Origin: Citrus sinensis
Lineage: Eukaryota > Streptophyta > Magnoliopsida > Sapindales > Rutaceae
DNA: 64,000 bases
Direction: 5' to 3'
Assembly: GCF_022201045.2 (NCBI RefSeq)
Contig: NC_068557.1
Span: 25,211,501 to 25,275,500, forward strand
In this document: positions 10,048-31,845 of the stretch, piece by piece
Numbering within the stretch: position 1 is the first letter of the stretch
How the letters are laid out: each line of letters starts with the position of its first letter
Position numbers and translations under genes: made by a program
The notes under the pieces: model-generated
The model's database searches: none
What the model was told of the DNA's origin: nothing
The model's input: only the letters and a program-made list of their open reading frames with translations

Positions 10048-10175
10048 GAGAAGGAGGAAGTGAAGGAAATCAAAGGAATGGGTGGCATAGGTAAGAAAGA
10101 AAGTATATATTTTCTTTTTCTCGTTCTCTTGCCCATGCACCCATTCCCGAAATTTCCCCTCTTCTTCTTCTCTGT
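10048..10175 (-). ncRNA. MIR482: MIR482/2118-family microRNA hairpin 1
   Basis: On the minus strand this folds as a long imperfect hairpin. The 5' arm (complement of about 10125-10148) begins GGGAATGGGTGCATGGG. The 3' arm (complement of 10075-10096) begins TCTTACCTATGCC and ends CCCATTCC, the miR482 pattern. Below the duplex the stem continues through GGAAAT/ATTTCC-type pairing. The loop is T/A-rich. The plus-strand flank TAGAAAAGAGAAGGAGGAAG is nearly the same as beside hairpin 3, showing common descent. miR482 family members are 22 nt, cleave NBS-LRR mRNAs at the P-loop codons and trigger phased siRNAs (established for the family). No small RNA data can be seen here, so processing is inferred. 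Confidence 0.85.
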
Positions 10176-10299
10176 TTTCTCTTTCCGTCTTCTTTGGGGT
10201 TCAAGGCCGCCTCCATGTAATTCAGAGATGAGAGGTTCCTTTCCATTTTATAGTAGAATTTGGAGGACTAGGGTTTCGCTCCCACTCCCAAAGCACTAG

Positions 10300-11455
10300 A
10301 GCACCACAACCCACGCCACGCGGCTAATAGCTAGCTTTTTCTTTTTCTTTTTCTTTTTTGAAAAAAACCCCGATCGTTGCAAGTTGTGATGTGTCGTGTT
10401 TTAACCTCTTTCTTAAATATTTAAAAATTTATGGGCCTTGGATTAGCTTTTCCTTTCACTTAAAAGTAAAAGTTAAATAAAAATTTAATTTATTTTTATT
10501 GTTTGGATGGTTATAGTAAAATATATTTTTTAATGAGAATTTTTTTTTAAGTGTTTGAATAATTATTTAAAAAAGACTTTTTAATTATTATAAAATTATT
10601 AATATCCTCAAATATTTGAGTCTAATAAATACTTATTAAATTTAAAAATTAATAACAAATAAAATAATTATTTGATCAATCTAGTTAAATTTTTATAAAT
10701 TAAAATACCATTTTTCTTTATAAAAAAAGAAGAACAAAAACAACTAGATTAAGTTTATCTAAATATAAGTTCCTTAGCAATATTTTTACAAACTACTCCT
10801 ATTAAAGTACCGTTTTAAAAAAATTAAAAATAAGATGTAAATCAAAATATGAGATTACAAATATATATATATATATATATATATATTATTTGAAAGAATA
10901 TTGGTGTGGTGATTGTGGTCCTTCAGTTTTTTTCTTCTTTTTTTTGGTTGAACAATGAAGAGGCAAAATAAAAAAAATACGTAAGAAATATGGTTTATGG
11001 GTTTAGATATGGATGTAATATTTTTTTTATTCCTTTGTTAATTTAAGATTAGTTTAGAAATTATAAAAAATATAATAAATGAGAAAATAATTTCTCAAAA
11101 GATTTTTTTTAATTATGACTTCTCCCAAAAGACCTTTTTTTAATTCTAAAAGCCAAAAAAAAAGTTTAATTCAGCTAATCTAAACAGACATTATGAAGGT
11201 TGGGCCGACAAGAAGAGACCACAGTGTTGTAAAAGAAAAAGGAAAAAAGTTCACTCAATTTTCTTTTCTTTTTTTCTTTTGTTTTCTATCATAAAAGGAA
11301 AAAAAAAGAGATAAAATTTAAATTATTTTTTACCCTTCAAAATTATAATCAATTAAATAAAACTACTTTAAGATCACATGCCAATCAAATAACTATTACA
11401 GTTTCTTGACGTTCGAGGATATCACAAGTAGAAATGATAGAATATTATACTTTTA
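10300..11455. repeat. AT-rich non-coding stretch with probable degenerate TIR element
   Basis: There is no coding frame. Near 10440 GGATTAGCTTTT is mirrored near 11175 by CAGCTAATCTAAAC, suggesting an old terminal-inverted-repeat element of about 0.75 kb. An (AT)n microsatellite occupies about 10860-10887. Confidence 0.35.
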
Positions 11456-11457
11456 GG

Positions 11458-12287
11458 TAGTGTTTATTTTCTGGAGTGGGAGTGTGGAGTGTGGATTTCT
11501 TCCACTTCAGTGTTTACTTACCTTAAAAAATGAGGGAGTGAGAGTGGGAATCCGTGGATCCCACTCAATTTTGGAGTGGGGAGTGGGGAGTGGGATTCCC
11601 ACTCCTATGGGGGGAGGTGGGAGTGGGAATCCACTCCCCCCTCTTCCCATTTTATCCTTATAAAAATAAATAAATAAATAATATGTAATAAAATAAATAA
11701 TATCATATTTAATAAAATAAATAATATCATATTTATTAAAAATAATAATTATATCATATTTATTTTATTAAATTTAATAAAATAAAAATAAATATTATAT
11801 TTAAATTAATAATATTAAACATTAATTTTAATAAATATCAATTATTTATTTAATTAATAATAATAAATATTTTATTCTAAAAAAATATTAATTTTGTACT
11901 ATATTATCAATAATAATATTTCATTTGTGTTGCTATTATTAATAATTTTTATTCACATAATTTAAATTAAAATTAATAAAAAAATTATGATTTACATAAT
12001 TAAGAATATTAGTAATTATTATTAATTTATAAATATAATAAAATATTTATTTTATTTTCCAAATATATTTTTTATTAATTTTTTAATTACAAATTATAAT
12101 TCTGTACATAAAGATAAAATTATAATTTAAAACAATTTACTCCCAATCCAAGACAAAGTAAACAAATAATTAGGATTCTGATTGACAATCTATACTTTCA
12201 TTTAGTCTAAGTAAATATCCTACTCTCACTCTCACTCCACACTTTTAATTTAAAAATTCCTACTCCAATCTAAAAAGTAAACGCAGC
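11458..12287. mobile_element. PIF/Harbinger-like non-autonomous element
   Basis: The left end GGTAGTGTTTATTTTCTGGA and the right end, read in reverse complement as TGCTGCGTTTACTTTTTAGA, are similar terminal inverted repeats. They are bounded by TTA on both sides, the 3-bp target preference of PIF/Harbinger elements. The interior is AT-rich with GAGTGGGAGT-type subterminal repeats near both ends. It has no transposase, so it is a MITE-like derivative. Confidence 0.5.
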
Positions 12288-12459
12288 ATTAATTCAAAGA
12301 GACATCTTATAATTCATCTGACTGATACATCAAATGTCCAAGTTCAATGATCATCGTTCATCAGCATGAAGAATAAAGTTACTACACTTGCTAATGTAAT
12401 GATGATTGAACGTATAGTGTAACCCAAAACTGATGATAATTGAATCGAATGGGATTATT

Positions 12460-12895
12460 GGTACCCTCTAAATATCTTTTAAAACTTCTTTAATTATTTT
12501 ATAATTTTAATATTTATTAAAATTATATAATACGATAATTTTTAATTAAAAATCTACTCAAAATTTAAATAATTTTTCTTTAAAAAATTTAACATTTTAG
12601 AAATTAAAAAATTTATTTTTTTCTCTAATTTTTGAGTAAAGAATTTACCACTGATGATTGCAATAGAGAGAAAAAAATCAGTTATTTTTTTCTTTTGAAT
12701 GGAAAGAATTTTATTGTTAAAATGAGATTTAATAATAAAAATAATTAAAAATTAGATAATAAAATTTACTTTAATAAATTTTAATTAAAAATATTTTTCA
12801 TTAATAGAGGTGTTAAAAAATTTATAATTTTTTAAAACATTTTAATGGGAGTTAATAAAGAAAAAGAGTGTTAAAACGATATTTAGAGAGGTCCC
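12460..12895. mobile_element. Short TIR element (MITE), class uncertain
   Basis: The left end GGTACCCTCTAAATATCTTT and the right end in reverse complement GGGACCTCTCTAAATATCGT pair as imperfect terminal inverted repeats around a very AT-rich 0.4 kb interior. A target-site duplication is not clear. Confidence 0.4.
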
Positions 12896-12899
12896 AATA

Positions 12900-14130
12900 G
12901 AAGCACTCAATTGAAAATGTGGAAAACTAAAGTAAAAAATATTGACTCTTTTTCTTTTTTCTGTACACAATATTTATCATAGCTGCTACAAATCCAGTAA
13001 CTATCTATGCTCAGGGTTATAGATTGCCGTCGATTACATGAATAATTAATTTAAAAAAAATGCTTGCCATCTCCTTTTAGGCAAATTGAATTTCTGCTCG
13101 ATTTTATTTGCTCAAAGGGACATATAATATTAGTATCGCGTTTGTTAACATATTTTCACGTTACCACCGTGTCCCCTTTCATGGGCTGGTGAAAGAGCAA
13201 CTGGGCTTTGGCCTTTATATGAACAAGTGGACACCCTTTTGTTTAGACAATACAAAAGTAGAATTTACGTTTTAATAGTCGCCTCGTGAAATAAAACGTA
13301 TTAACCCGTACATTCATTTTGGGGAAAAATTTTTTTGGATCAGATGATCTCTTGGTATGAACACTTATGATCTTTTTTAGATCTTATGCCACACATGTTT
13401 TAGTATTTTTTAATTTATTAACCACTAATTATATTAAAAAATTTAATCTCAGATCAGAAGAGAATCTGGTTAAAAAATTTTAGAATCTCAGCTGGTATGT
13501 TAATCAATGAGTTGGTTATTTATTGTTAGATAATATAATAGTAATTTAACTGGTTATAAAATTCATCGTGAGTGAAGCAAAAGCAAAGCAAATGGTTAGG
13601 ACTTAAAAGGCAAAACTGGATCTGGAAATCCAAATATTAGGAAGTTTTTCAATTAGATTTGACAAAACCAAACACGGCTACAAAAGCCTACAAGCTGTTT
13701 AACATATAAGTTGACCAAGAAGTAAACTGTTAATTTATAAAAGCACTTTCAGAATCTATCACTGAAAATCACAGATGTAAGGAGGAGGAATATGAAACAT
13801 TAAGATGTCATGTCGTCTGCATATTTATAAATGAAATGTCATGTCGTTAGCATAAAACATTATAAACGACGCGCCATCAAGGATATCTCATCGAACCCTG
13901 TCTTTTACATCTCCCCGCCATGACTGATGTTAAAACCCAGCCACGAAGGGGATCCATAGCCAAATTGTAACAAACAAGATTGATTAATTAATAAAAAAAG
14001 AAGAAGAAGCTTGATATGAAAACGATAGAAGGAAAAATGATGACGTCATCCCCCACAAAATAAATAGAAAGAAGAGATACCTTACCAGAAATTGAACTGA
14101 AGAAATCAAGCACGGTTCCTAAAGTCGACG
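12900..14130. other. Intergenic spacer, no gene recognised
   Basis: Mixed AT-rich sequence without a credible frame. The tandem pair ATGTCATGTCGT (about 13806 and 13837) is the only structure seen. The right end leads into the conserved flank of the second microRNA hairpin. Confidence 0.35.
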
Positions 14131-14139
14131 AAGAGATGA

Positions 14140-14310
14140 TAAAGAGAGGAAGGAACTGCAGGAAATCATAGGAATGGGAGGCATAGGGAAGAAATTGAAT
14201 TTGTAATTTTCTTTCTCAATTGAAAAAGAAAAGAAAAATTATACGTTTTCTTCACTTCTTACCCCACGCTCCCACTCCCAAAACTTCCTCGCTTCAATCT
14301 TCCTCTCCTC
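14140..14310 (-). ncRNA. MIR482: MIR482 hairpin 2 (mature matches csi-miR482a as recalled)
   Basis: The minus-strand 3' arm, complement of 14171-14192, begins TCTTCCCTATGCC and ends CCCATTCC. I recall this 22-mer as citrus miR482a-3p. The 5' arm, complement of 14257-14278, begins GGAGTGGGAGCGTGG and pairs with it with mismatches. A second helix in the loop (CTCAATTGAAAAAG and partners) extends the fold. The flank AAAGAGAGGAAGGAACTGCAG on the plus strand matches that of hairpin 3. Expected role: 22-nt regulator of NBS-LRR transcripts and phasiRNA trigger. Expression and exact ends are not visible. Confidence 0.88.
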
Positions 14311-14813
14311 CTCCTCTGTTTCTAGATTCACAACACAACTATGCAAGTAAAAGTGTTGTAAATGCCCTCCGGTAAAAGTAAGCAAAGCTGCAGCTTGCAA
14401 AAGCAAGTGATTAATAATTAAAAAAAAAAAAAAAAAAGCCTGCCGTTTTGAAAGTGTTAACTTTATTGGAAATGCAAGGAATCATTTATTGGAATGAACA
14501 CCCGTTTGGACGGTAGTCATTAGAGTCTGATGCGGCCAGTGCGGGGTCTGTGCTGTCACATGCTTGTGTCCGCCTTTTAAAATACGACAAAGAATAAAAA
14601 ATTTGAACGAAGAAAAGAATCCGAAGCAGGAGATTTGCCCGTGCGTCCTCATCAGCATCAATGACCTTTTCGTTGTGTGAAGTGTGAACACGTAGATTTA
14701 TGTCGAGGGTTGGGTTGGTTGCCTGCACACGAATCTATCTTGTGGTCGCAACTACGTGGACGGTCTGAAAGGGAAAGAGAGGGCTTCGGTCTAATCTAAT
14801 GCGCTCAGCTTGA

Positions 14814-15078
14814 AATTTTGGGAAGAAAAGTAGAATAAGTCCGATTGTTGAAGAGTTGAACAACAAGATAGAGGATTCCCCTTAGGTGCAACAGTGGCAC
14901 CGTGCTACAGTTGCACCTAGTCGTTGGATGTCAGTAGATCTTACCAATCCAACTGCATCCAACGGCTAGGTGCAACTGTAGCACGGTGCCACTGTTGCAC
15001 CGTAGCCTGATCCCAAGATAGAATCCCAGAAAATTTTGGGAAGAAAAGTAGAATAAGTCCGATTGTTGAAGAGTTAAT
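14814..15078. repeat. 46-bp direct repeat flanking a MITE
   Basis: AATTTTGGGAAGAAAAGTAG through TTGAAGAGTT occurs at about 14814-14860 and again at about 15031-15076. The MULE MITE at 14873-15013 sits between the copies, so a local duplication preceded or accompanied its insertion. Confidence 0.7.
14873..15013. mobile_element. MULE-type MITE with 9-bp TSD
   Basis: A 36-bp perfect inverted repeat (14885-14920 against 14966-15001, core GGTGCAACAGTGGCACCGTG) lies in a 141-bp element whose outer ends both start GGAT. Nine-base direct repeats CAAGATAGA flank it at 14864-14872 and 15014-15022. That length is diagnostic of Mutator-like transposition. Confidence 0.85.
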
Positions 15079-15296
15079 AGTAAAAAAAAAAAACCTTCAT
15101 TATATTAATTATTTAATAGTAAAAGTTATAAAAATTATTTTCTTTGCCAAATCGCTAAATTCTTCGTATTTCGATTATTATAACCCTACTTATTTATTTC
15201 TAAATAAATTAAATTCAGCATCAACATATCTAAAATTCGTGGTGGTCATAATTATTTTTAACATGTTTTTCCCTGATTTCTTTCGAGTTTTTAAAT

Positions 15297-15878
15297 GGGT
15301 AATTTTTAAAAACCTCTCCTGAGGTTTGGGTTTGTTGCAAGTAGATGACGGAAATTTATTTATTTGTAAAAAATCATCTACCGTCAGTTAATTTTAACAT
15401 CGACCGTTAGTTGACTTTACAAAGACAATATTACCCTTAACAATAGTTTGTAGACGGAAATAACTAAAAAAAAAATCAAAATTGTTGGCTATTTTATCCT
15501 CTTTAAATTATTGATATTTTCTTAAAGTTCCTACAAAAAAAGATAAAATTAAAAACTTAAAAAATCCTCTTTAAATTATTGATATTTCCTTAAAGTTCCT
15601 ACAAGAAAGATAAAATTAAAAACTTGAAAATGAAAAAGTCATAATCTTTACCTATGATATTGTAAATCTTTGGAATTGACAAGGATTAAATTGTCAAAAA
15701 ATAGGGTTTGTGCTTTTTGCGCCAATAATTTTAATTTTTTTTTTAGTTATGTCAGTCTACAAACTATTGTTAAGGGCAATATTGTCTTTGCACAGTCAAC
15801 TAACGGTACAAATAAACAAATTCTCACTATCTACTTGCAACAAGCCCAAACCTCAGGGGAGGTTTTTAAAAATTACCC
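15297..15878. mobile_element. MULE-like fold-back MITE with 10-bp TSD
   Basis: The ends are near-perfect inverted repeats for more than 50 bp, beginning GGGTAATTTTTAAAAACCTC on either strand. The pairing continues inward (for example ACAATAGTTTGTAGAC against GTCTACAAACTATTGT). GTTTTTAAAT is duplicated at 15287-15296 and 15879-15888. The interior carries a direct repeat of about 65 bp (from about 15497 and 15562). The open frame across the right half is fortuitous. Confidence 0.85.
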
Positions 15879-16035
15879 GTTTTTAAATCCTTTTCAAAGA
15901 CAAAACTATTTTGTTTTGAATACTAAAAGTTGTCAAAGATCCATCAATCCCCTATTGAAAAGTCGCGTAAAGTATGATTTGCATTTTGAAAAAATAAATG
16001 CATATCTCTCATGGAGATTTGTTTGTCGTCTGCAA

Positions 16036-16904
16036 TAGAGGTGGGCAATGGGCCGGACGGCACAAGGCACGACACGGCACGAGCAGGTTTGGATAAAGCA
16101 CGCGGCACGGCACGACACGCACGTGGGCCCTGCCGACCTTAGATTTTAGGTACGTGGGCCTTAAAAGCACGGCACGCGAAAAAGCACGCAATAAGCACGT
16201 TTCATTTTTAATGAAAGTAAACTTAAAATTTTATAATTTTATAAATAACTTGAAATTGAATCTTTTAATATATTTTATTAGCTCAAGTTTTTTAAATTTA
16301 TTTAATTATTAGTTTGAAAAAAATTATAATTGATTTATGTTTATAATTTATTAAATAAATAATTGATATCATGATTTTAATAAATAAAATTATAAATATC
16401 ATGATTCTATAAATATGTATTAATATTATTATAAACTGTGATATATGACTTTACGTAATTCAAAGTTAACAATTAAGTTAACTTTTAAAAAAAATTATTA
16501 TTATTGTTGTTGTTAAGTATTAAAAAAGAATTCTAATATCATAGAGTCAAACTTAACAACTAACATTACATTCTCTTATTATTATTAATTTTTTATTATT
16601 GAATATGGACTTGAATTTTAAATTTGTTATTCTATTAAATTTAAATAAAGCCACATTGATCCAAAAAAAGTACATAAGATTGAAAAAAAATAAGACAACA
16701 ACTTGACATGCGCTTTTAAAAAAATAAAAAAGGAAAAAAGCTTAGGGACTATTTTTCCTAGGCACGGCACGGCACGAGTGTGAACGAGCACGAGCACGTG
16801 TGGGCACGGCACGTTTGCCGAGCTGGCATGACACGAGCACGAGCACGCGTGGGCTTCCTTTGATTGGCCTGGGTCAGCACGGCACGGCCCGTTGGCCATC
16901 TCTA
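16036..16904. mobile_element. hAT-like non-autonomous element, copy 1
   Basis: The ends TAGAGGTGGGCAATGGGCCG and, in reverse complement, TAGAGATGGCCAACGGGCCG form terminal inverted repeats. The 8-bp flanks GTCTGCAA and GTCTACAA form a target duplication with one mismatch. Subterminal GGCACGGCACGA-type repeats are dense at both ends, and the interior is AT-rich without transposase. The interior is shared with the elements at about 24.09-24.91 kb (inverted) and 63.07-63.89 kb. Confidence 0.8.
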
Positions 16905-16964
16905 GTCTACAAATCATCTGCTAATGAAATTATCACCCTAATAAATATCCTTTACAAGTTACTA

Positions 16965-19940
16965 TTGATGCCGAAATCCGATTGAGTTGGTTAGTGACTC
17001 ACTCCTAGATTCCTGCATCAGCATTAATTTTTTTTTGTGGTGAAACGGCTTGCCAATCATCAAGGATGTCCTGTGATGGCCAATTAATAATCTGCAAATA
17101 CTTTGGATTTTTCAGGACTTTTTTAAGCATAAAGAATTATCGTACCATCTTCAATGCATTGACGTTATTGGGTTGAATACGTTACTTGAATCATGCGTTA
17201 GTGTGCCTGTTACAGAGTAGTTCTTAAGCAGCAATTATAGCAGTTGGGCGTGCGTGGACATTATGCCCAACTTTTCGAAAGGAACTCGTCAATTAAACTT
17301 AATTAAGGTCTTTAAACCGACCTAGTTCTGGTCTCCTCAAACCTATCTGCTCGAAGTCACTAGAATTACCTCCTAGTGGAGAAGACCAGCTCAAGGTCAC
17401 CAGAATTACCACCTGGTCGAGATGGTCTGCACATTCATTTTCTCACTTTTACTTGGAGAACATGGTCATCCTATTTAATTTCCTAAACAACAATCCTCCA
17501 GTTTCTAGTGTTGAGAGTGAAACAAATCAAGACTGGAAACTCTAAAGTTCATAGTTTTACAAACTTAAAACTTTAAGCAACTTATTTTGCTTTCTCTGCT
17601 GACCATGCCATCGGTGAGCAGGTTTCGTCAGTTGAAAGTTTTATGCATTGCCTAGAGGAAGTTTCAAGGCTTTTAACCTTTAACTGACTTAAGCAATTTT
17701 AAATTACTCTTATCAGTTTAAGGTCTTATGTCTTATCTAGAATAAGCTTTAAAACTTCTAACCTTATACTGACTTAAGTAACATTAAACAACTCTTGTCA
17801 GTTTAAGGTTTTATGTTTTACTTAAAATATATTTTAAAGTTTTAACCTTTTATTGATTTTCTTTACTTTTTTTAATGCCTTGTAAAATATTAATAAATTT
17901 TATCTATAAACTTTGCTGGTCTTCTCAATGCTAGCCTACAACTCCCATTTCATAATTTGCTTTCACATTGAGCAACTTTCAAGAAATTAAGTTAATTAAG
18001 TTATACCATCAGCCCAAATATGAGCACAATCAATTTAATGAATATAAGTTATCCTCATCTCACATAGCAAGACTTAGAGAAATAATTAAATTTTCGTGGA
18101 AAATTTGCATGTAAATCAAAATATAACTTCTGACCTGTTCTGATTCCTGCAAACATGTGCTTTGAAAGTACTGTCGTATGAGCTTTTTGCTTCAAACCCT
18201 TAAATATGGATCTTTGGTGGGTGTTTTTCATTCAAACTATGAACGTCATTCTGCTCTATTGTCATGATATACTTCCCTTGCAACTTTTGAGTTTGCTTTA
18301 ATTGTCAATTTACTATTTTTTCCAATTTTGTTTCTGTTACTGCTTTAGCTTCTATTTGTCAACCTTGCCTCTAGCTTACTCAAGATGTCTTTTGGGAGGC
18401 TTAAGAAGACATTTCTATGATTTGTAACTCATAAAAAATATGAGTAGAGAAACAACAAAACTCATTTAGACATTTTATCATATACTTGGTAGACATAACA
18501 TTAATATCATGATTATATAATTATCTTCCTGGTGATTACCAAAAAATTTCACAAACAAGATAACTAAACTAAGATGGCTTATGCAAAAAGGGTAAAGATA
18601 TATTCTCAAGCATAAACGCCAAACAGGTAATGAAGATAAGCATGTTATCCCAAAAATATGATTAATTAAATACAAATGATAAGCACATGATCTTGTAAGT
18701 TCTGATGCCATGCGTCGTACCGGATTTAGAACTTATGCTCACAATTACGAGGCATGCAGTAAATGAAAATTTGATTCTAAATTTTCATGCAATAATGCAC
18801 GTGAATGGCAACTTAAACAAATTGAACTTGTGATCTAGTCAAGTTGGCGATGAAAGAATATTTCCTATGATCAAATTGGATTTATGCTCACAATTACCAA
18901 AATTGTGCAATCAAATAAATTGATTTTCATAATTTCATGTTGTAAGCCGTGAAATGTTTTGGATGAAATGAAGAATCAAGTTCGCATCAAGCTAGTATAT
19001 GAATTGAAGTGAAAAGCTGTATCGATGACTTACCGATTGAATAAGCAAATTTTTTCAATACCTTGATTTGGTCATTGGCCTCTGGGCAGGGTTTAATCGA
19101 TAATTACTACCATCAATTTAATTTGCTAATCACTTCTGCTTTGGCCAGATCAAAATTGGTAGAAAGAATGATGACTTTTCTTACGATTCCCCACACACAG
19201 TACTAAAATGTTGATGTTGAAATCTAGTCGAGCTGATAATGGAGATCATGTTACTTCGTCAACACTTGAATTTATTTTGATCGGAAACTGCCACTTGTTG
19301 CTCCGTTAGAATTGGAATTGCGACAATGCTTGTTTTTATCTGCAATAACAAAAAACTATTAGGGGGCGCCGGATTTTTTCCAGTGAAAATTCTCTGACGC
19401 TCAAGTTAGCAATCGAGTTTTCTTGTAAAAAATAGTAATGTCACACCATTAGTGATCTTACGTATTTTTACTGTGTTTTTCTTTTTATCAGATTTTTTTT
19501 CCTCTCCCCCTTCCCAAAAAAAGTCATTTTTTTTCAGGATCTTTCCGGGTTCTTATAGACAACCGTGAATATTGCTTGTTCTTCAATGTACGGTCGTTAC
19601 CAAATTGAATGTGTCACTTGAATTAAGAGTTAATGTATCTGTTTCTACATAGTTATTGAGCTGCAGTTATAACGCCTCATCGCGTTTAGACATTATGGCA
19701 GTACGTGCTTAGATGTTACGAACGAACTCCCAGGTGGAGTTCAACAATCTGAGTATTAAATAAAGGCCTAAGAATCGGATAATCCAATTTTGGTCTCCTC
19801 GCAAGATACTAGTTGCACTTGCATATGCGACTAGATTAATTTCTCCTCGATGTTTTATATTACCTTCACAACATCGATATCTAGTGACTATATTTATATA
19901 CCCTAAACAGTTACTATATTTTGTATAATTCATAGGCAAA
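16965..19940 (-). mobile_element. Decayed LTR retrotransposon remnant
   Basis: Segments around 16967-17340 and 19209-19800 are recognisably related (for example GAATACGTTACTTGAAT against GAATGTGTCACTTGAAT, then matching CTGGTCTCCTC and TTGGTCTCCTC), as old LTRs would be. Near 18697-18711 the minus strand reads CATGGCATCAGAAC, resembling the initiator-Met tRNA primer site, with a preceding CA LTR end. No protease, RT or integrase frame survives. Boundaries and even the pairing of these LTRs are uncertain. Confidence 0.4.
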
Positions 19941-20429
19941 TATTATTATGGCAAGCATAGAGGTGAGCATTTGGATCAGGTTAAACCATACAAATCCAAA
20001 TCTAAAGTCCAGTTTGATTTTGTTTAACCTATAAAATTTAAACGAGCTGAGATTTAGAACCTAATTGGATTCTAATTTCAATTCGGATTCAAACATATAT
20101 GAACAAAAGTCACACAACTCACACACATCAGACAAATCAGACAAGCGGATAAAAACTCGTTTAGTCTCTATATTTTGATATTAGTACTCATTTAAACTTT
20201 ATATTTTTTAAAATATCTCAAATCATTCCTACTTTACTCTTTTTTTTCCTTTTAACTTGCTTTTGCAGTATTATCCTTTTATAATAATGTTTCTTTTTTC
20301 CTATACATTACTAAAAAGAAAAAATTATATTACTAATTTAACCCAAAAAATAAAATAGAAATAAAATATATATCAATTTTTGCGGAATACTCTACTGAGC
20401 AGTTGAACCGTTTGCTTAAAAATATCAAA

Positions 20430-20935
20430 ATCCGTTCAGGTGCACTCGACAACTCACTCACATACACCCACACATCGCGGTCGTTGTCGTTCAGGTGCAC
20501 TAACATTGCATCTTCTAATCGTTCTTGAACCGTTCACTTCCAATCTACTGCTGCTGGTAAAAAAAAAATCAAAATTCGTAATTGCTAATTACTCTTCTCA
20601 TCTTCCAAAATAATGACACCATTACACAAGCAAACCCCCCCCGCGCCAAAAAGAAAAACCCAGAAGAGCTCATGGTAAAAAAAATTCAAAATTTGTAATT
20701 GCTAATTACTCTCTTCTCATCTTCCAAAACAACGACACTACTGAATAAGCCGAACAAACAAACACCCCCCCCCCCCCCCCCCCCCCAAATAAAAACAGAA
20801 CAAATAAGGCCCACTCGGCAACTCACTCACATCCACACATTGCGGCCGCTGTCGTTTAGGTGCACCAACATTAGATCTTCTACCCGTTCTTGAACCGTTA
20901 GCTTTCGATCTACTGTCGCTGTCTTTGCCATTGGT
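20430..20935. repeat. Diverged tandem duplication with C-tracts
   Basis: Two related segments, about 20440-20670 and 20672-20930, share TTGCTAATTACTC, CATCTTCCAAAA, CAACTCACTCACAT and TTCTTGAACCGTT blocks in the same orientation. A homopolymer of about 22 C lies near 20765-20787, and a shorter C run near 20635. Confidence 0.6.
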
Positions 20936-20974
20936 GCCTCCTTCACTCACTGTCGTTAGTAGCACAATACGTTA

Positions 20975-22158
20975 ATATTGCATTTACTTGTCAACAATGG
21001 AAATCGAATAGAGCAATCAAAATGAAAAAAGTATTTACTTGTTTAATTGAGGAAGAAAATAGGAATGAGATGCATGGATCCCACAAAAAATAAAGAATCG
21101 CTACCAAGTTTGTGATTCTAGTAGGGGGGCTGGGAATCCCAATCTCATTCCCGATCATGACAAAAATGTCCCGTTATTTTTTTTTAAAATACCCTCTATC
21201 ATTGAAAACTATAAATTGAGAAAACAAAAACAAAAACCGAAATCTCAAATAGCAACTGACCCATCTCATCTCTCTCACCTAGAATCGATCAACAGTTCAT
21301 CACTTTCTCTTGCCGAGAGCAGCTTATCACCAATTACACACGCTGCCGCTCGTCACCGATCAACCGTCACCTGCTTCCATTGCTCGTGACCAATCTCGCA
21401 TGAGACTAGTTGGATTCGTTGTTGATTATTAATGGTAAGATTGTTGATGATGATGATTTTTATGACAATAATGGTGATGATTGATGATGGTGATGATTAT
21501 TATTGATGTTGTTATTGTGAATATGATTACAAAGATGATCTAACTGTGATGAGGATGACGAAGATGAAACTGGATTTTGATGTCGATGAAGAAGAAGAGA
21601 CAAAAGTGACAAGAAGAAAAAGAAGATTATTGTGATGATGATGATGTTGATGAAGAAGATGAAATTGACAATGGAGAAGTAACAAAGAAATTGCAGAGAA
21701 AAGAGGAAGGAGAAAGAAAAACGGGAGAGTGATAAAATAATAAGAAAAAATAAAAGAGGAAAAATAATTTATTTATTATTATTATTATTATCAATAATTT
21801 TCTTAATAATAATAATAATAATCATATAATAAATAATAAAAATAATAGTAATAATAAATTAAGGGTACTTTTTTAATAATATTATTATTATTAACAATCA
21901 TTTTTTATTTTTATAATAATAATAGTTATTATTATAATTAATTAAGAATATTTTAATAACTTGGAACAATTAAGCTTATTTCGATTCCGATTCTAAGATA
22001 AGATAAACACGTCTATAGAATTCCAATCTATTTCAATTTCTACAGTTCAAATAAACAACTTATTTTGAGTTCCATTCGTCATTCTCATTACAGCTTATTC
22101 TCATTTCAATGCATTTTGATTTTAGTCAATTCTAATTACTGACAAGTAAACATAGCAT
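20975..22158. mobile_element. Harbinger-like TIR element
   Basis: The left end contains GCATTTACTTGTCA and the right end in reverse complement GCTATGTTTACTTGTCA. TTA/TAA triplets sit at the borders. The interior holds GAT-rich microsatellites (about 21440-21680) and AT-rich repeats but no transposase frame. Confidence 0.45.
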
Positions 22159-22289
22159 AAATTACTTAATTCTAGTGATGAATGAAAAATGGGGTTGTCA
22201 ATTGAATGTATATCCCAGAAGTAAATATTTTTTTGATTTGTTTGGTTCCAAGGTACACAAACCCATTTGCCTATGTGTCATTTGGACTG

Positions 22290-22353
22290 TGGAGATGTAA
22301 CTTCAATACTCAATAGCTTTATAGGATGTAACTTCAATACTCAATAGCTTTAT
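22290..22353. repeat. 31-bp tandem duplication
   Basis: GATGTAACTTCAATACTCAA followed by TAGCTTTATAG occurs twice head to tail, immediately left of the MULE MITE at 22363. Confidence 0.8.
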
Positions 22354-22362
22354 AGTTAATAT

Positions 22363-22514
22363 GGACCTGTCTACGTTACAGATTCTGTAACAAACATCTC
22401 CCGTCATCCCACCATCCGATTTTCTTTTGTTTAGTTTCTCACTCCACATCCAATCACATCCAACGGCTGATGCTGCAGTCTGTACCTTACAGAATCTGTA
22501 ACGTAGTTTTGTCC
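22363..22514. mobile_element. MULE-type MITE with 9-bp TSD
   Basis: The inverted ends contain CTACGTTACAGATTCTGTAA and its complement. AGTTAATAT is duplicated exactly at 22354-22362 and 22515-22523. The element is 152 bp and non-coding. Confidence 0.85.
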
Positions 22515-23374
22515 AGTTAATATTTGTTTTTATTCTGCATCGATCCAGGCTGTGATTTGAAATTCCTTAATTTTAGGTGGCTGCTAGTAAATTTTTTCAA
22601 ATTGATCTGTTGTAACTCAAATTTTCAAACCGAACTGACTCGAATTGCGAACCAAATCGAATTGGGGAATTAGACCCAAACATGAGCAAAAACCAATTTG
22701 CCCACCCCCTAGCTAGGCATGTGATACTGCCCGTCTAAGAAACAGGAAAATTCGAATCCTCGAGATAACACGAAAGCATTTCCACAATTTTTATTTTTTT
22801 ATCTCTCATTCTCCATTTAATAATCTATGCTCAAACACCTGTATCTTTTATTCTATCTCAAGGGGTAAAAAAGAAAAAAAATTAAAGAACAGGGAAAAGA
22901 TCTAGCAAAGCAAACTTTTGATAAATAATTTTTCAGCTAAAATTAGTTTGTGAATTTGAATCCAATCCAGATCAATATGATAACAAGCAATCTTATCTTC
23001 GTTAAAACGATACAAATTAGTTTCTTTTCTTTGTTTGAATGAATGAATGGCCCTTTTATGGTCCATTTTCTAGTTTCTATCCCTCTTTTAAGATCACTAA
23101 ATCTTAATCTAGTAGCAGAATTTAGTGGCCTTTAATCAATTTAGTATGTAATTCAATGGATAGATTGATATTGTTCACAAAAAAAAACACCAAAAGTGTT
23201 TTAAATATGGCATGGCTAAAGAAAGTCTCAGCAAAATATCATTTCATCAACCACTATAGAGTGTAGATCTAAGAAGATATAGTATAAAAATTGAAAGAAT
23301 CAGAGAAATATCATACCAAAATTTGAGGCATGGAAAGAATAATAGATGGCTTCTCAAACCTCTTAGTCAAGTTC

Positions 23375-23560
23375 ATCAATAATACAAAGAGAGATAGAAA
23401 AGAGAGGAAGGAAATGCAGGAAATCCAAGGAATGGGAGGGGTGGGCAAGAAAAATTTTCTTTTTCTTTTTTATTGAACAAGAAAAATAGATCGCTTCTTG
23501 CCAAGCCTCCCATTCCAGAAATTTCCTCACTTCTTTCTTCTTCTCTTTCTTCCCTGTGTC
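23375..23560 (-). ncRNA. MIR482: MIR482 hairpin 3 (mature matches csi-miR482b as recalled)
   Basis: The minus-strand 3' arm, complement of 23429-23450, begins TCTTGCCCACCCC and ends CCCATTCC, a 22-mer I recall as citrus miR482b. The 5' arm, complement of 23496-23516, reads GGAATGGGAGGCTTGGCAAG. The lower stem (GGAAATTTC against GGATTTCC) extends pairing, and the loop contains CTTGTTCAATAAAAAAG. The plus-strand flank AGAGATAGAAAAGAGAGGAA is shared with hairpins 1 and 2, evidence of segmental duplication. The coding-looking frame on this strand (GHREEREEERSEE and so on) is an artefact of the purine-rich stem. Confidence 0.88.
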
Positions 23561-24089
23561 CCCTCTCCTTCTCCATTCTTCATACGCTCGCTGCTCACCA
23601 TCACAACCACGACTGAAAGTCTCAAGTCAGGTCGTTGATTGAAATGGCTCAAATAATCCGACTGCTCACATCCCGTTAGGGTTCTTCAATTTTAAGGCTA
23701 TTTTACATAAAAATCCCTGCCGTTGTAAATTGAATCGTTCCTTCCTGTTTCGACACTTGTAGGGTAATCTCGTCATCTCATGAGATACTTTTATCCTCCA
23801 CAAAGTTGACACGTCTCCATACGAAGTAAATTCTAATACACAATAAAAAGTTCCCACGTAGTGGACGTGGCAGCTTGCTTGCATCACCATCACGCCTTGC
23901 CTTAATTTCGCCGCAAGAGTTGTTTATTATTAAAATTTGGTTACTTTACATTTAACATAAGGTGCAATCTTCCACACAATTAATTCGTGGGCTCTATTAA
24001 GATCCGTAGCTGATAGAGAGAATTATACTAAATTAAATGTATGGTAACAACTCTTTATATTTTTTTATGTTGATTTTTTGAAATGGTGG

Positions 24090-24908
24090 AGACAGAGATA
24101 GGTAAAGGACTGTGCCTACTCATACAAGTTCGCGCTTACTTCATATCGTATTTATTACGTGTTTCGTATTGTGTCGTACTTAATTTTTTTACTTAAATTT
24201 GACCCAACACACGTATCGTTCCATGCCATGCCTTGTCTAAAAAAAATGATATTTTTCTTAATTTTCAAGAGAACATGCCAAGTTATAAGCGTATATACCC
24301 TTTTTTTTTTCTTTTTAAGATCTATATGCCTCTAGTTAAATTCAACAAAATCATAATTTTAAACTTTATGATATTAGAATTCTTTTTTAATACTTAACAA
24401 CAATAATACAACAATAATAATAATTTTTTCTTAAAAATTAACTTATCTGTTAGTTTGAACATACATAGAATTATAGATCATAAGACATAAAAACATTAAT
24501 ACATATATTTTATATAATCATCATATCATCTATTCATTTAATAAATTATAAACATAAAACAATTAGATTATTTTTTTAAACTAAAAATTAAATGAATTTA
24601 AAATAAAATATATTAAAAGATTCAATTTTAATTTTTTTATAATATTCAATTTCAAATTATTTATAAAATTATAAAATTTTAAGTTCACTTCTATTAAAAA
24701 GTTAAATATACTTATAACAAATCTTTTCACATATTGTGTTTTAATCAATCTCTAATCACATCTTGCCTTTAAAACTCATATACCCAATCTACAAGGATAA
24801 AACACTGCATGCCCTACTAAAATATGCTCGTGCATACAACAACATACAAACGCATGTGATACCTGTACCATACCACAGACCGCCGGACCCATTAGCCATT
24901 GTCATGTG
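24090..24908 (-). mobile_element. hAT-like non-autonomous element, copy 2 (inverted)
   Basis: The AT-rich interior is the reverse complement of the 16.0-16.9 kb element (for example TAAAATTTTAAGTTCACTTC against GAAAGTAAACTTAAAATTTT). The right end reads GCCGGACCCATTAGCC, a degenerate TIR. The left end and target duplication have decayed. Confidence 0.6.
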
Positions 24909-24909
24909 T

Positions 24910-26500
24910 AGGAGGTTGATGGGCAAATTAACGAGGTAATTGCATCAATTTTCCTGGCCAATTATCAAGTACAGTTGGTTGCCGAAATCATTCGTCGGTT
25001 TACCAGTTTCTTGTTCATCGAGACACATACCAACATTCGACGTTATGTAATTTCAATTCAATCAATTCCTCGATTTTTTTGTAATTTAAATTGCTTTCCT
25101 ATATTCATTGTTTTATTAATTTCATTCATTGCCAAACCAAAAAAAAAAAAAACTTCTGATGTAATCATGTGTTTTTCTTCTTCCTATCCCATTAAAGGGG
25201 ATATATCATACGGCTAATTTTCATAAGTATGGGAATTTATATTGTCATCACAGCCGCGTGTTGGGATTGAAATCTGGAATATGCCACATTTTCATTCACA
25301 AGCGGAAAATCCTCCTTGCTCAATGCTCATAGCTCTTCCAGTGACTAAAGAGTTCATAAAATTTAAAAAGAAAAACATCTCCAGTAACATTTTTTCTTTC
25401 TTTTTTTTTTTTTTTTTTTTTAAACAGCCTATATAATAATGCCAACAAAAGATTAAACTTGACACAATTGAGGTCTTACCAAGCATTTAACTCAACCATG
25501 GGATGAACCAAATCATGGAAATGCCCTTTGTTGGTCGGAATTGATGACGGAAACTTCAGTGATTCATGGGGAATCCGTTCAAGAATAAGTGAAGACCATG
25601 CTTTCATAAGCAAACCCATATTCAATGAAACAAAAATACTAAAGCAGCTTTGGACAGAGGCAAAAGCTAAAGCCAAAGCAAAATCTTCGGAGGCTAGTAA
25701 TTCAATATCTCAGTACAAATATCACTTGCATAACAGGAGATAAATATTCTCTCTAGTTTCCTATGGCTAGAAGCAGTTTTAACCAAAAAGTTTTCTTGAA
25801 TCAAACGTTTCCTTGTATTCTATTGAGACCACTGGATTTCCTCTAAGGGTATGTTTTTCAGATGAATTCTGTCATTAGATCTTTCTGGCAATTTAATCTC
25901 ATAATAATAACAGAGCAAGTTTAAATAGTAATACTTACATTCAAGGAATTCGACAAAAGCAATTTTGTTTTGACTAAGAGATTAGAGAATGCTAATGTTC
26001 TTTCTTGAGAGATTTATATTTTTATACACACGGCAGACAGGAGAACCACAAAGGAAAAAAAATGACCGGCAAAACAGTAAAGATACTCGGCATCATATCA
26101 AGTGATGAAGGCTGGAGCAATTTTCAAAGAGAGTATTGCCTCTGTATCAAAAAGCACTTCTGTCAAAAGCCCTTGATCATCTCAAATTAAGCATTCAAAC
26201 ACTAGCATATAACTTAGAATTCTGAGAACCCTTAGGATGAAATCTAATACCAAACAAAAAAATTAAGACAATTTTTTTTTTAATTCCTATGCAGAAATAC
26301 TTCACTCATAAATCTACACCCATCAGCAATCCCAGTGAATAGACCACCACCCCCCCCCCCCCCCCCCCCCCCAACACAACCAATAAAAAAAAAGGAAGGA
26401 ACCAGTGAAGCACAATAGTTAAAGCAAAAGCAAACTATTCATGAAGTCACAAGATCATCATCAATCGCAGAAGAGAATATATCCTCTCTTAGTGGCTTGG
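24910..26500. other. Spacer inside the MIR482 cluster
   Basis: Short open frames occur (for example 25528-25743) but lack family resemblance, splice context or codon pattern. A run of about 24 C lies near 26348-26372 and a T run near 25400-25420. Part of this interval could be transcribed as the primary microRNA transcript, which sequence alone cannot show. Confidence 0.35.
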
Positions 26501-26519
26501 TGGTGCCTATAAAAACTTC

Positions 26520-26640
26520 ATCAATCAAAGAGAGAGAGAAAAGGAGGTACAAGAAAAAAGCTTCCCTAATAAAAGTAAAAGAATCCCACTAACTTATTCA
26601 TATTCCTAGAAATTTACCCTCTTCTCACCCATATCAAAGA
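26520..26640 (-). ncRNA. Possible decayed MIR482 hairpin remnant
   Basis: CAAAGAGAGAGAGAAAAGGAGG at the left and ATTCCTAGAAATTTACCCTC at the right resemble the outer flanks of hairpins 1 and 3 in the same order and spacing. The mature and star segments are not recognisable. It could be chance in purine/pyrimidine-rich sequence. Confidence 0.25.
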
Positions 26641-28560
26641 ATACTTGAATCAAAGCATACCCTTCTCTCAAATCAAAGTTTCATGGTAAGTTCACTCAAC
26701 CTTATTTATTTATTTTGTGCGTAGCTTAATTATCCTGACACCTGTGTGACCATCATGCACTGAGATTTTTGTGGTGAAGGACATAGCAAATCATTTGCAG
26801 CACTGGAAGCTCCGAACAATCTTGAAACAAGAAATACATGAAGCAAGCATTTTCAATATCAGAAAAAATTATTCCATCAAAACAACTGAGGGAACCATTT
26901 TATTACATAAAAAGCATGAGCCCAATCAAACACTTGGTCCACAATACATAGTTGAACATGGACAAAAGTATGAATATTTTCGAATAGGAATAGTCCAGGT
27001 TGGTGTCAAAGCACTCAACATGATGATATTGGTAGCACATCCATTTTACTTTGCTTAAGACACAAGAGAATTCTTGATTTTAATGTTTTCTTGTTGAGTG
27101 TACTTCAATCAAGTCTGGCCGATGGCCATGTTCACTTCAATTATTATCCAAATCTCAAGGTTTCTCTTCAAGATAAAAATATTGTGGATGTTCTAAAACT
27201 CGTCCGATACATTTTACTACAAATGCATGCCTGCCCGACTAACTCTGCAGCCAAAAAATCTAGCCTCATATATAGAACCCTTTTCTATCAAACAATCATC
27301 AGATCCCCAAGTTCTGTGGCTTCTAGGACCATCAACTTGGTTTCTATAACCATTTGATGGTCCGATGTCCAACTCCCTGAGGAGTGGAAAGTAAGAGATG
27401 AAATTCCTCTAGAGACAAGAGTATGAATCTCATCAGAGGATCAAGCCGCCTGATCAGGCAGCCAGGACTTGCTTTCCACCAACACAGAGTGGGGAGTCTA
27501 CTCAATTTCATTATGGTTTAAACACCATCATTTCATGAAGGACATCAGATTTCTCAGTCCAATTTCCTCATTCCACCTCAAGCTCATAAAAGCCTAAACG
27601 AATTATGCCCTTTTACTTTAAACCTAAAAATTTTCTTCAGTATATCTTCCTGTAAAATTTCTGTTCCCTTTCCAGGTAATTGCTCTCCACAATCTAACAT
27701 TACCATTCAAAACAAGTTCAAAGAGTGGAATGGAATATATCACCATATCAACATCAAAGGAAACAAGCAAATATAATATATTTCAGAAAACACCCAGCAA
27801 AAATGAATCCATTTTTAAAAGAACAGGGCAAATTCAAGCAGGTTCTACCAGCTCTTCCCAACATCAAAGAACTGAACCGACAGTAGTTCACACAGAAGAC
27901 AATAGCGTAAGCGTTTGTATTGAGCAATTGCTTGTTGCTGTTTATACCAGCTCTTCCCAACATCAAAGAACTGAACCGACAGTAGTTCACACACAAGACA
28001 ATAGCGTACGCGTTTGTATTGAGCAATTGCTTGTTACTGCTTATAATTTTCCAGTATATGGTAGAATGTAACAATTTTCCTGATGACTTTTAGTCCACCT
28101 TTCATATCTCCAAATATTCCAAGATCACATAATTTTAAAGTCGTGTTTTAGAATTTGCTCCATAACTTCACTTCAACTTCATCACATCGTCTCATTCACA
28201 AATCAACTATCAGGGCGAAAAAAATAGCAAATAATCTCTGTGATCTAATTATTCAATAATTCAAATAAATTACTTAGTCAAAAAATTACTTGCAATACAT
28301 ATAAGATCAAATTAATTGTTATTTATAACGATTTTTGAACTTGGTAACACAAGATAACACTTCTCTTCTTCATTAATCTCAAAGGTTAAACTAATTTTAT
28401 TAAAACAAAAAAAAATATAAATCACATAAAACAGCAGGACCTTGAAGAATGCTAGTTGTCAACAAAATAAAAAGCATATTAGCCATTGCATAAAGAAAGT
28501 AAATAAATAAATAATACACAGAACAACAAATATACGTAGAGTGTTAAAACACAGTTAACG
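26641..28560. other. Spacer between MIR482 hairpins, no gene recognised
   Basis: Frames at 26771-27058 and 27091-27357 show no recognisable motif. A 99-bp tandem duplication lies at 27847-28044. The interval may belong to the primary transcript of hairpins 4 and 5, in which case it would be spliced or exonic non-coding RNA. Confidence 0.35.
27847..28044. repeat. 99-bp tandem duplication (2 copies)
   Basis: A unit starting ACCAGCTCTTCCCAACATCA repeats head to tail at 27847-27945 and 27946-28044 with only a handful of substitutions. Because 99 is divisible by three, open frames continue through both copies on both strands. This is recent local duplication. Confidence 0.9.
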
Positions 28561-28589
28561 AGAACGAATGGGAAAGAAGCAGGAAATAA

Positions 28590-28735
28590 AAAGTGAAGGG
28601 AAAGAGATTAGAAGCTGAAAATCATAGGAATAGGGGGACTAGGGAAAATTAATTTAGTTATGACAGACAAGTCAAACAAAACCTTCCCTAGCACCCAATT
28701 CCAAAAATTTTACAGCATCCTCTCTCTTTCCCTTT
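28590..28735 (-). ncRNA. MIR482: MIR482 hairpin 4 (mature matches csi-miR482c as recalled)
   Basis: The minus-strand 3' arm, complement of 28625-28646, begins TTCCCTAGTCCCC and ends CTATTCCTA, a 22-mer I recall as citrus miR482c. The 5' arm, complement of 28684-28702, reads GGAATTGGGTGCTAGGGAA and pairs with it. The loop contains TTGACTTGTCTGTCATAAC. The plus-strand flank AGCTGAAAATCATAGGAAT matches the equivalent of hairpin 2 (GGAAATCATAGGAAT). It lies only about 170 nt from hairpin 5 in the same orientation, so the two are likely in one transcript. Confidence 0.88.
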
Positions 28736-28789
28736 CTCTCAATTGATTTGAAAACGGAGATGTACCCAGATGGCCAGATAAGAGTTTGA

Positions 28790-28945
28790 TTGGAAAGAAT
28801 TGAAACCATAAGAAATCATCGGCATGGGAGGAGTTGGCAAAAGATTTCATTTAATCATCATCGTCATCTTATATACTTTATGGTAAAATTGAAAGATTTT
28901 TTCGCCAATCCTCCCATGACCGAAAATGTCTTACGGGCCTCAGCC
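28790..28945 (-). ncRNA. MIR2118/482-type hairpin 5
   Basis: The minus-strand 3' arm, complement of 28819-28840, begins TTGCCAACTCCTCC and ends CATGCCGA. Its TTGCC start and register resemble miR2118 (legume TTGCCGATTCC type, from memory) more than classical miR482. The 5' arm, complement of about 28901-28922, begins CGGTCATGGGAGGATTGGCG and pairs almost fully with it. Outer helices (CCGTAAGACATTTT with matching AGAAATC segments) are weaker. Expected function is again P-loop targeting in NBS-LRR mRNAs. It is the most upstream hairpin in minus-strand sense. Confidence 0.8.
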
Positions 28946-29299
28946 CTTTCCTCAACTCTTCTTCTTCATCTCTCATTCTATTTGGGGCGTTAGGGTTTTC
29001 GGTTGATGCTGTGAATTTAAAGACGCGTGGAGAGGTGACGAAGCATCGTGGTGGGTGGTGAATTCAAGATGAAAAAATTGATGCTCGCTAGTGGGGTATG
29101 ACTCATCATATCACAATGCCTGCCGTAATTAATAATATTAAATGTAGCACGAATCGACTGACTCCGCACGGTAGTTTCTCTGAAATAGAGCATTTGGGCT
29201 TTGTTGGGTCTCGGACTTAACTCTTAAGGCCCACATACCTCACGAGCACAACTTTGTTAGGCGAGTGGTGGAGCAAACTCATCATTTTACAAACAACTT

Positions 29300-29978: not shown

Positions 29979-31845
29979 TGTTGAAAATTGATTAAAAAAA
30001 AGTGTCAAAATGGTGGGTTGTTGAGCAAATGGCTAGCCATTGAACAAGGAAAATGGGTAGGTGCCGCCCATGGAAAGAAGAAAAAAAAGGAAGAAAAGGA
30101 AGCCATAATTTGGCTATAAATAGAAGAGTGCTCCTCCTTATTTTTGTATCCAAATTTTAGTGAGAATTGAGAGATAGAAATATTCTTAAGCATGTAGTTA
30201 TATTGAAGGAGTATTTGGCTCCTCAATATTGGTATTATGGGGTTGCTTTGTTAAAGAATATTTATCGGGATTATGTATTTGGGGCTTGGGGGAGAGAAAA
30301 TTATATCTGAGAGTGGTTGTAATAATTTTCCACATAGTGAATATTTTTCTCTGGTTGTCTCTCGACAACGGCCGTGGTTTTTCTCCGGATTTGGAGTTTT
30401 TCACGTAAATCTTGTGTTGTGTGATTGGTGTATTCTCCATTTAATTTTTTATTTATTTGTTGCTTGATAAATTGCTTGGAGCGATCTTAGGAGGAAGCTC
30501 AATTTCCTAACAATGGTATCAGAGCCATTGATTGAAGGTTTGGTGTCGGGACACTGTTTATGTATACGATATTGTTCATGTATACGGTACTGTTCACGTG
30601 AAGTAGTGGAGCCAATTCAAATAGTCTGTGGTGAAGAGCGGAGGCTGATCTATAAAACATATATGTCAACAGATGGTGTTTTTCAAACTTGGTGGAGTTT
30701 GATGTTGTTAAAAAATTAATGGGAGAATAATTTTTTGTTGGCTTGTGGAGAATTCAAGTTAAAGGTATATCCAATCCGGTATGCACAAGGATTTGAAGGT
30801 GTGGGCAATTTGGCACCTCAAGGAAATTGTCAAGAAGGTGGAGCGAGCTCGGCAAATTGCTCTAGAATCAGGAGATACTGATATTCTCGCAAGTGGTGAA
30901 TTTCTTTTTTAGAAGAGATTGAGTTAGTTCTTTTGGCATGTAGATATCCAAGTTGCCATGAAAGAGAGCATATTATTATCAGTGGGGTCCACAAGTTTGC
31001 ACGCAGGCATTGGCTTGGTATAAATGCAAGGTGTGTGGTGGAAAAGTTATGTCATGGCTGAAGAATTCTCAGTGAAACCAAGCATGAGAATTGCACCATA
31101 AATTTCAACATGATATTTTGACATGTGCCGAGAAAAATTTTAAAATGGTTGATTCTAAGTGGTATACTCTTTATGGTGGAGTGTGATAATTCTTTATATT
31201 GAGAATTATCACTGTTGGTGAAGACAGTGTTTTGTAGCAGTGGCTATGAAATTTTTTTTTTTTTAATCATGGTGGAGATTGTTGAAAATTGATTAAAAAA
31301 AAAGTGTCAAAATGGTGGGTGGTTGAGCAACCATCTTTGAATTCAAAGATGGTGGGTGGCTAGCCATTGAACAAGGAAAATGGGTAGGTGCCGCCCATGG
31401 AAAGAAGAAAAGGAAGCCATAATTTGGCTATAAATAGAGGAGTGCTCCTCCTTATTTTTGTATCCAAATCCCAGAGAAGCGATCCAAATTTTGGTGAGAA
31501 TTGAGAGATAGAAATATTCTTAAGCATGTAGTTATATTGAAGGAGTATTTGGCTCCTCAATATGGGTATTATGGGGTTGCTTTGTTAAGGAATATTTATC
31601 AGGATTATGTATTTGGGGCTTGAGGGAGAGAAAATTATTTATGAGAGTGGTTGTAATAATTTTTCACATAGTGAATATTTTTCTCTAGTTGTCTCTCAAC
31701 AACGGCCGTGATTTTTCTCTATTTGGAGTTTTCCACGTAAATCTTGTGTTGTGTGATTGGTGTATTCTCCATTTAATTTTTTTATTAATTTGTTGCTTGA
31801 TAAATTGTTTGGAGTGATCTTGGGAGGAAGCTCAATTTCCTAACA
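29979..31845 (+). mobile_element. Non-autonomous copia-type LTR retrotransposon, complete with TSD
   Basis: The 5' LTR (29979-30512) and 3' LTR (31280-31845) both start TGTTGAAAATTG and end TTCCTAACA. The primer-binding site TGGTATCAGAGCC (initiator-Met tRNA type) follows at 30514-30526, and the purine-rich GGTGGAGAT precedes the 3' LTR. The target duplication TCTTG flanks it at 29974-29978 and 31846-31850. The 767-bp interior has no gag or pol frame, so transposition must rely on another element. The LTRs differ by small insertions, including about 30 bp near 31325-31355 and about 20 bp near 31470. Confidence 0.93.

Follow-up and report, generated by a model that had tools for sequence, protein, structure and literature searches.

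The stretch of Citrus sinensis DNA described here, called the window throughout, comprises 64,000 nucleotides (nt) of contig NC_068557.1 (C2:25211501-25275500, in a searched genome of 299.7 Mb and 11 contigs). Within it are five minus-strand hairpins, H1 to H5, each with a miR482-type 22-mer in its 3′ arm (Table 1). A sixth microRNA (miRNA) gene, MIR472, lies on the same strand outside the window. In the direction of transcription the order is H5, H4, H3, H2, H1 and then MIR472, and the cluster amounts to six genes of the MIR482/MIR472 family across about 35 kb. A first-pass annotation, made from the letters of the sequence, had proposed the five hairpins with 3′-arm 22-mers as one 19-kb locus; all five were found where it had placed them, folds and shuffles agree with it, and the clustering on one strand stands, but five genes in 19 kb have to be replaced by six in about 35 kb.

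Table 1. Features of the citrus MIR482/MIR472 cluster (window coordinates unless a contig is given)
Feature	Position	Strand	Mature 22-mer	miRNA*	Fold z	Remark
H1, MIR482 precursor	10059-10160	-	10075-10096	10125-10145	-7.35	
H2, MIR482 precursor	14155-14290	-	14171-14192	14255-14276	-8.43	
H3, MIR482 precursor	23413-23528	-	23429-23450	23494-23514 (predicted)	-7.82	
H4, MIR482 precursor	28610-28718	-	28627-28648 (motif 22-mer); 28625-28646 (published csi-miR482c)	28680-28700 (predicted)	-8.09	Second of close pair along transcription
H5, MIR482-type precursor	28804-28932	-	28821-28842 (motif 22-mer); 28819-28840 (published 22-mer, shifted by 2 nt)	28898-28918 (predicted)	-5.69	First of close pair along transcription
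MIR472 precursor	C2:25205594	-			-5.70	5.9 kb left of window
Candidate H5-H4 dicistronic unit	28600-28945	-			-7.60	A single 346-nt RNA folds into both hairpins, one beside the other
Dispersed repeat copy between H1 and H2	11452-12294					847-nt alignment at 90% identity with a copy some 100 kb farther left

The hairpins themselves are a direct observation. For each of the six precursors, none of 200 shuffles reached as good a fold energy (z from -5.7 to -8.4). Of the 31 consensus pairs in the six-row alignment, 8 stay paired in one or more sequences despite changes on both sides. As in other members of the MIR482/2118/472 superfamily, the stable hairpin holds the mature sequence in its 3′ arm. 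The 22-mers end in CCCATTCC in three of the five window hairpins, in CCTATTCC in H4 and in CCCATGCC in H5. With at most one mismatch, TTNCCNANNCCNCCCATNCC occurs at six sites in the 264 kb around the window, all six in hairpins (at least 18 of the 22 mature bases paired), and 30 dinucleotide-preserving shuffles of these 264 kb gave no motif site. Taken by itself, the short motif CCNATTCC occurs in the window at a frequency compatible with chance (7 occurrences, 5.3 expected). Rfam, at its gathering score, gives no match in the window either, which is not counted against MIR482 identity because hairpins, published reads and targets agree.

All five window matures and the MIR472 mature are identical in their letters to published citrus small RNAs, as a letter search over 5.39 million open papers showed; names are those of the papers. 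The H1 mature is cj_MIR482a-3p (PMC5292693), that of H2 is csi-miR482a (PMC2864249, PMC8121382), and that of H3 is cj_MIR482b (PMC5292693) or csi-miR482b (PMC8121382), named csi-miR482c in PMC2864249. The H4 mature is cj_MIR482c (PMC5292693) and csi-miR482c (PMC8121382), and also csi-novel-06, with the expressed sequence tag (EST) CX051199 and the entry 'Yes' for miRNA star (PMC2864249); curry leaf, another Rutaceae, also carries its 20-mer (PMC8747174). H5 corresponds to cj_new_MIR038 and MIR472 to cj_MIR472 (PMC5292693). Each of the six has exactly one place without mismatch in the genome, inside the cluster (tested with the published 22-mer for H4 and the motif-aligned one for H5). The family identity proposed at first pass is supported. 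The miRNA* predicted for H1 from the fold alone is letter for letter the cj_MIR2118 of PMC5292693, which gives a 22/21-nt duplex, and that of H2 is csi-novel-08 in the novel-miRNA table of PMC2864249 (EST EY676411), a name borne by a different sequence in the expression table of the same paper. The predicted miRNA* of H3, H5 and MIR472 had no match in a literature letter search made in the U-form only. Among published reads, a miRNA/miRNA* duplex is indicated by letter match for H1 and H2 and by the table entry for H4.

These miRNAs are already known, and what is added here is their shared address and the division of targets. The citrus papers on miR482a/b/c and miR472 (PMC2864249, PMC8121382, PMC5292693) contain the same matures and cover sequences and expression, for instance listing csi-miR482a, b and c for stem and root (PMC8121382); in their available text no shared locus is described, and the word 'cluster' occurs 0 times in that of PMC2864249. 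A literature search over titles and abstract openings, with few subscription papers, found no account of a citrus MIR482/MIR472 cluster, and one may exist. The number of C. sinensis miR482 submembers in miRBase is given as seven (PMC11353999).

The matures are complementary to the codons of the P-loop, GxGGxGK, of nucleotide-binding site leucine-rich repeat (NBS-LRR, here NLR) genes. When reverse-complemented and translated, the motif-aligned 22-mers spell GMGGIGK for H1 and H2, GMGGVGK for H3, H5 and MIR472, and GIGGLGK for H4; the match is present in all six and weakest in H4. The differences among copies are phased by codon: 19 of the 22 variant cells fall at the 7 codon-third positions of the P-loop (permutation p 0.0002), while the other two phases have 0 and 3. 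Six published citrus miRNAs can be assigned to one address, and the way they vary mirrors codon wobble in their targets. We consider it highly probable that the locus is a one-strand cluster of six MIR482/MIR472-family genes whose P-loop-matching, diverged matures silence different NLRs. Each hairpin would release a 22-nt miRNA from its 3′ arm, which would pair antisense to the NLR mRNA at the P-loop and cause its cleavage or repression, and the 22-nt length would allow the seeding of phased secondary small interfering RNAs (phasiRNAs). For this family it is established that the hairpin yields a 22-nt miRNA, which leads to NLR cleavage and phased siRNAs (PMC10575705, PMC5902766). Expression and phasiRNA triggering in citrus are taken from the literature, in which citrus miR472 and miR482 are listed as 22-nt triggers of NBS-LRR phasiRNAs (table of the review PMC5902766). 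The copies would derive from old duplication and have diverged where they face codon-third positions in the target, with the result that different copies would match different receptors. The locus would in this sense be a natural test of how plants hold large NLR sets in check.

The same complementarity to NLR P-loops would also be expected if the hairpins had recently arisen as inverted pieces of NLR genes, P-loop included, and yielded siRNAs instead of processed miRNAs; inverted NLR repeats are the probable starting point of miRNAs of this kind (PMC10575705). Nevertheless, the GATTT of the lower stem sets the hairpins apart from antisense NLR sites: a precursor pattern built from the six genes (mature end plus lower-stem GATTT) occurs at 7 places in the genome, and 6 of them are the cluster. 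Moreover, among eight antisense P-loop-like sites on C2 outside the cluster, upstream pairing involves no more than 6 of the 22 bases in seven (15 of 22 in the eighth), and the published reads are a defined miRNA and miRNA* for H1 and H2. Recent NLR fragments are for these reasons an extremely improbable origin of the hairpins, and processed miRNA genes are the preferred reading.

Targets were sought as genome places with at most 3 mismatches to each mature, excluding the cluster genes, with reversed patterns as controls. The matures have 47 (H1), 44 (H2), 22 (H3), 5 (H4), 29 (H5) and 37 (MIR472) places. The union is 142 places; a single mature matches 107 of them, two matures match 28 and three match 7. 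This bears out the first-pass proposal that several mature variants match different NLR genes, with H4 hardly taking part. H1 and H2 have 21 places in common and share none with the other matures, and H3, H5 and MIR472 share 9-10 pairwise. The NB-ARC search scored 124 of 862 candidates and the TIR search 150 of 283. The scored NB-ARC domains make up 0.029% of the genome and contain 25 of the 142 places; counted with sharing, these are 1 for H1, 4 for H2, 13 for H3, 0 for H4, 15 for H5 and 10 for MIR472. All 43 mature-by-NB-ARC overlaps are antisense and lie 39-87 nt into the domain match. On C2, seven of eight antisense sites outside the cluster are in open frames of 415-1226 amino acids (aa) with a P-loop, and the eighth (C2:3595381) in a frame of 98 aa. 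Four NLR-like frames of 1189-1226 aa with the P-loop GMGGVGKT stand at C2:22.06-22.13 Mb (L029-L032), and three of them have H3 sites.

Places within 3 kb downstream of a scored TIR domain, here called TIR-linked, are distributed unevenly: 15 of 47 for H1, 11 of 44 for H2, 0 of 22 for H3, 0 of 5 for H4, 1 of 29 for H5 and 1 of 37 for MIR472, all 28 antisense. Counted as distinct sites, the TIR-linked fraction is 18 of 70 for H1/H2 and 2 of 67 for H3/H5/MIR472 (Fisher p 0.00015, an optimistic value since sites in gene arrays are not independent). Because of this difference, H1 and H2 appear to favour TIR-NBS-LRRs relative to H3, H5 and MIR472. According to the available text of PMC10575705, miR472 acts on CNLs and miR482 on both TNLs and CNLs, and the split between H1/H2 and MIR472 agrees with these classes. 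In terms of the proposed mechanism, the GMGGIGK copies H1 and H2 would match TIR-NBS-LRRs among others, the GMGGVGK copies H3, H5 and MIR472 would match few TIR-linked sites, and the GIGGLGK copy H4 would have few matches overall. The distribution suggests that neighbouring copies may be aimed at different receptor classes, and we infer from these matches a possible division of labour in vivo among the copies.

Several counts weigh against reading the locus as a cluster of NLR-silencing miRNA genes. The scored NB-ARC domains leave out 117 of the 142 target places, and 52 of the 70 H1/H2 sites have no link to a scored TIR. The reversed-pattern controls gave 3 matches for MIR472 and 1 for H1 (0 for H2, H3, H4 and H5). 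Finally, none of the 5 sites of H4 is in a scored NB-ARC domain or behind a scored TIR domain. This last result is what would be expected if H4 were a decaying copy without real targets, a reading that deserves some weight and is still doubtful: the fold of H4 is strong, its expression has been published with a miRNA* 'Yes' (PMC2864249), and its best site is antisense to a frame reading VIVGIGGLGK, though this frame is short (74 aa). Another H4 site, C4:11088127, was discarded as target evidence, as it adjoins a frame that looks gag-like by eye.

The first-pass annotation attributed the cluster to tandem duplication, on the ground that H1, H2 and H3 share flanks beyond the stem. The sharing is real and spans about -132 to +67 around the mature; in 280-nt folds, however, the 5′ flank, rich in purines, is base-paired with a 3′ flank rich in pyrimidines, and what was taken to be beyond the stem is largely an extended lower stem. 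The computed pairing probabilities contain distant pairs as well. When 3 kb on each side were compared, uncapped, for the 15 pairs of the six genes (E≤0.01), in-register similarity formed a single block that surrounds the hairpin and extends no farther than about -132 to +67 in 12 pairs, and no in-register match was found for H1/H4, H1/H5 and H3/H4. Three outlying in-register matches (MIR472/H1 between roughly -740 and -470, H2/H3 between roughly +1540 and +1720, and H2/H4 between roughly +2310 and +2400) are 60-67% identical, stand among 20-183 hits per pair, many of them AT-rich, and look like AT-rich chance. Pairwise precursor p-distances are 0.18-0.21 among H1-H3, 0.238-0.295 between MIR472 and H1-H5, and 0.277-0.384 for the remaining pairs with H4 or H5; on the stem columns of the multiple alignment they are 0.216-0.451. 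A tree of seven precursors had no resolution (supports 21-40). Origin by duplication is upheld by the distances among H1-H3, and the duplications are old rather than recent, since homology is limited to the precursors and short flanks.

The annotation also held that transposons had separated the hairpins. Repeat copies do lie between the units, namely the dispersed copy of Table 1 and, around 16.2 and 24.5 kb, some shorter ones, and they give this proposal partial support; no Pfam transposable element domain was found in the 10 open reading frames (ORFs) tested of 18 with at least 100 aa, a search that decayed transposons would escape.

With all members on one strand, and with three ORFs of at least 100 aa between H1 and H4/H5 that have no Pfam match, a single long primary transcript over the whole cluster could be envisaged. 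This is nevertheless very unlikely, given the span of about 35 kb and the separate ESTs published for H2 and H4, neither of which is a strict exclusion. The 22-mers of the neighbours H5 and H4 are separated by 172 nt, and the 346-nt RNA that contains both folds at -121.1 kcal/mol, with 0 of 100 shuffles as low. On these grounds H5 and H4 would lie on one transcript. The published coordinates of EST CX051199, in which the H4 precursor occupies positions 168-263, put the first base of the EST in the H5 loop if it is collinear and forward; under those conditions the cDNA may begin there.

The nearest precedents are the MIR482 cluster of tomato chromosome 6 (PMC4700956) and the poplar pair (PMC2812943), as far as the available text of these papers goes; the hickory paper PMC5708078 deals with tandem miR166, not miR482. 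The tomato cluster has four family members in 8.2 kb, taken as tandem duplicates, without a coding gene between them, whereas the citrus cluster has six members over about 35 kb, with wider spacing and MIR472 included. The MIR482-MIR1448 polycistron of Salicaceae (PMC3475693, PMC2812943) resembles the citrus pair in having two MIR482-type hairpins in one short stretch, the second with few NLR targets in poplar and citrus. In poplar, however, ESTs span both hairpins (PMC2812943), and none was seen for citrus. The miR482 polycistron has been described as exclusive to Salicaceae, with none found in other plants, under the criteria of pre-miR482 homologues no more than 2000 nt apart and a p-distance of at most 0.40 (available text of PMC3475693). 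H5 and H4 lie well within this spacing, and their precursor p-distance is 0.347 by pairwise global alignment, below the limit, or 0.451 on the stem columns of the multiple alignment, above it. Over 20 positions, agreement with poplar miR482.2 is 18 for H3, 17 for H2 and H5, 16 for H1, and 15 for H4 and MIR472; agreement with miR1448 is 16 for H2, H3, H5 and MIR472, 15 for H1 and 12 for H4, the lowest of the six. By these counts the matures give no sign of H5-H4 being the poplar pair. That H5-H4 is a two-hairpin transcript sharing its origin with the poplar/willow polycistron, with neighbouring copies tuned to TIR and non-TIR receptors, is judged unlikely. If it were true, the pair would be older than the divergence of Sapindales from Malpighiales, and its published Salicaceae specificity would be wrong. 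A close pair outside Salicaceae would, if co-transcribed, alter the published evolutionary claim.

The cluster does not hold the whole family. A seventh MIR482 hairpin lies at C6:543300-543510 (fold z -7.98), with a perfect place of the 22-mer of ptr-miR482a, a trifoliate orange miRNA (PMC2881865), at C6:543447. The model R1, built from the six cluster genes, scores this hairpin, held out from its training, at 74.6 bits (H1, a source sequence and not independent, scores 101 bits). With the perfect ptr-miR482a place, the fold and this score taken together, the genome has at least seven such genes, six of them in the cluster. The precursor pattern mentioned above is biased toward its six source sequences and missed the C6 hairpin; its seventh place, C3:33870912, was rejected as a MIR gene, being in sense orientation to a 133-aa frame, NLR-like by eye, and having no R1 match. 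A scan of 333 kb with R1 produced 20 matches with E≤1, namely the six source genes, the same six on the opposite strand and eight others, six of which were set aside because their alignments contain no full miRNA motif; the two remaining ones are at window 21045-21163 (E 0.71) and L016 (E 0.73). A looser pattern with 1 mismatch had 144 places and 97 control places, and among the 100 of the 144 places listed one proved real, the C6 hairpin. Six other places (one with 0 mismatches, five with 1) were rejected for lack of an R1 match, a rejection that does not extend to another two places with 0 mismatches, on C4 and C6.

As for the surroundings of the hairpins, the box TATAWAWR is not above background upstream of them. 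The 8-mer ACGGCAGG is common to H2, H3 and H5 (window 14439-14446, 23716-23723 and 29119-29126, minus strand), 169-208 nt upstream of the start of the miRNA*, and is absent upstream of H1 and MIR472; it was rejected as a shared upstream element, given that an 8-mer of this kind is common to the members of 4.4% of random sets. A repeat of about 530-580 nt, with two copies 86% identical, occupies window 29979-31845 and starts about 1 kb upstream of H5 in the direction of transcription, and a 99-nt tandem duplication, 95% identical, lies about 0.6 kb downstream of H4 (27838-28035). Among the tested ORFs, the first recognizable protein genes met on going right from the cluster are the minus-strand frames of a CCCH zinc finger (34887-35255) and a B-box zinc finger (42195-42800).

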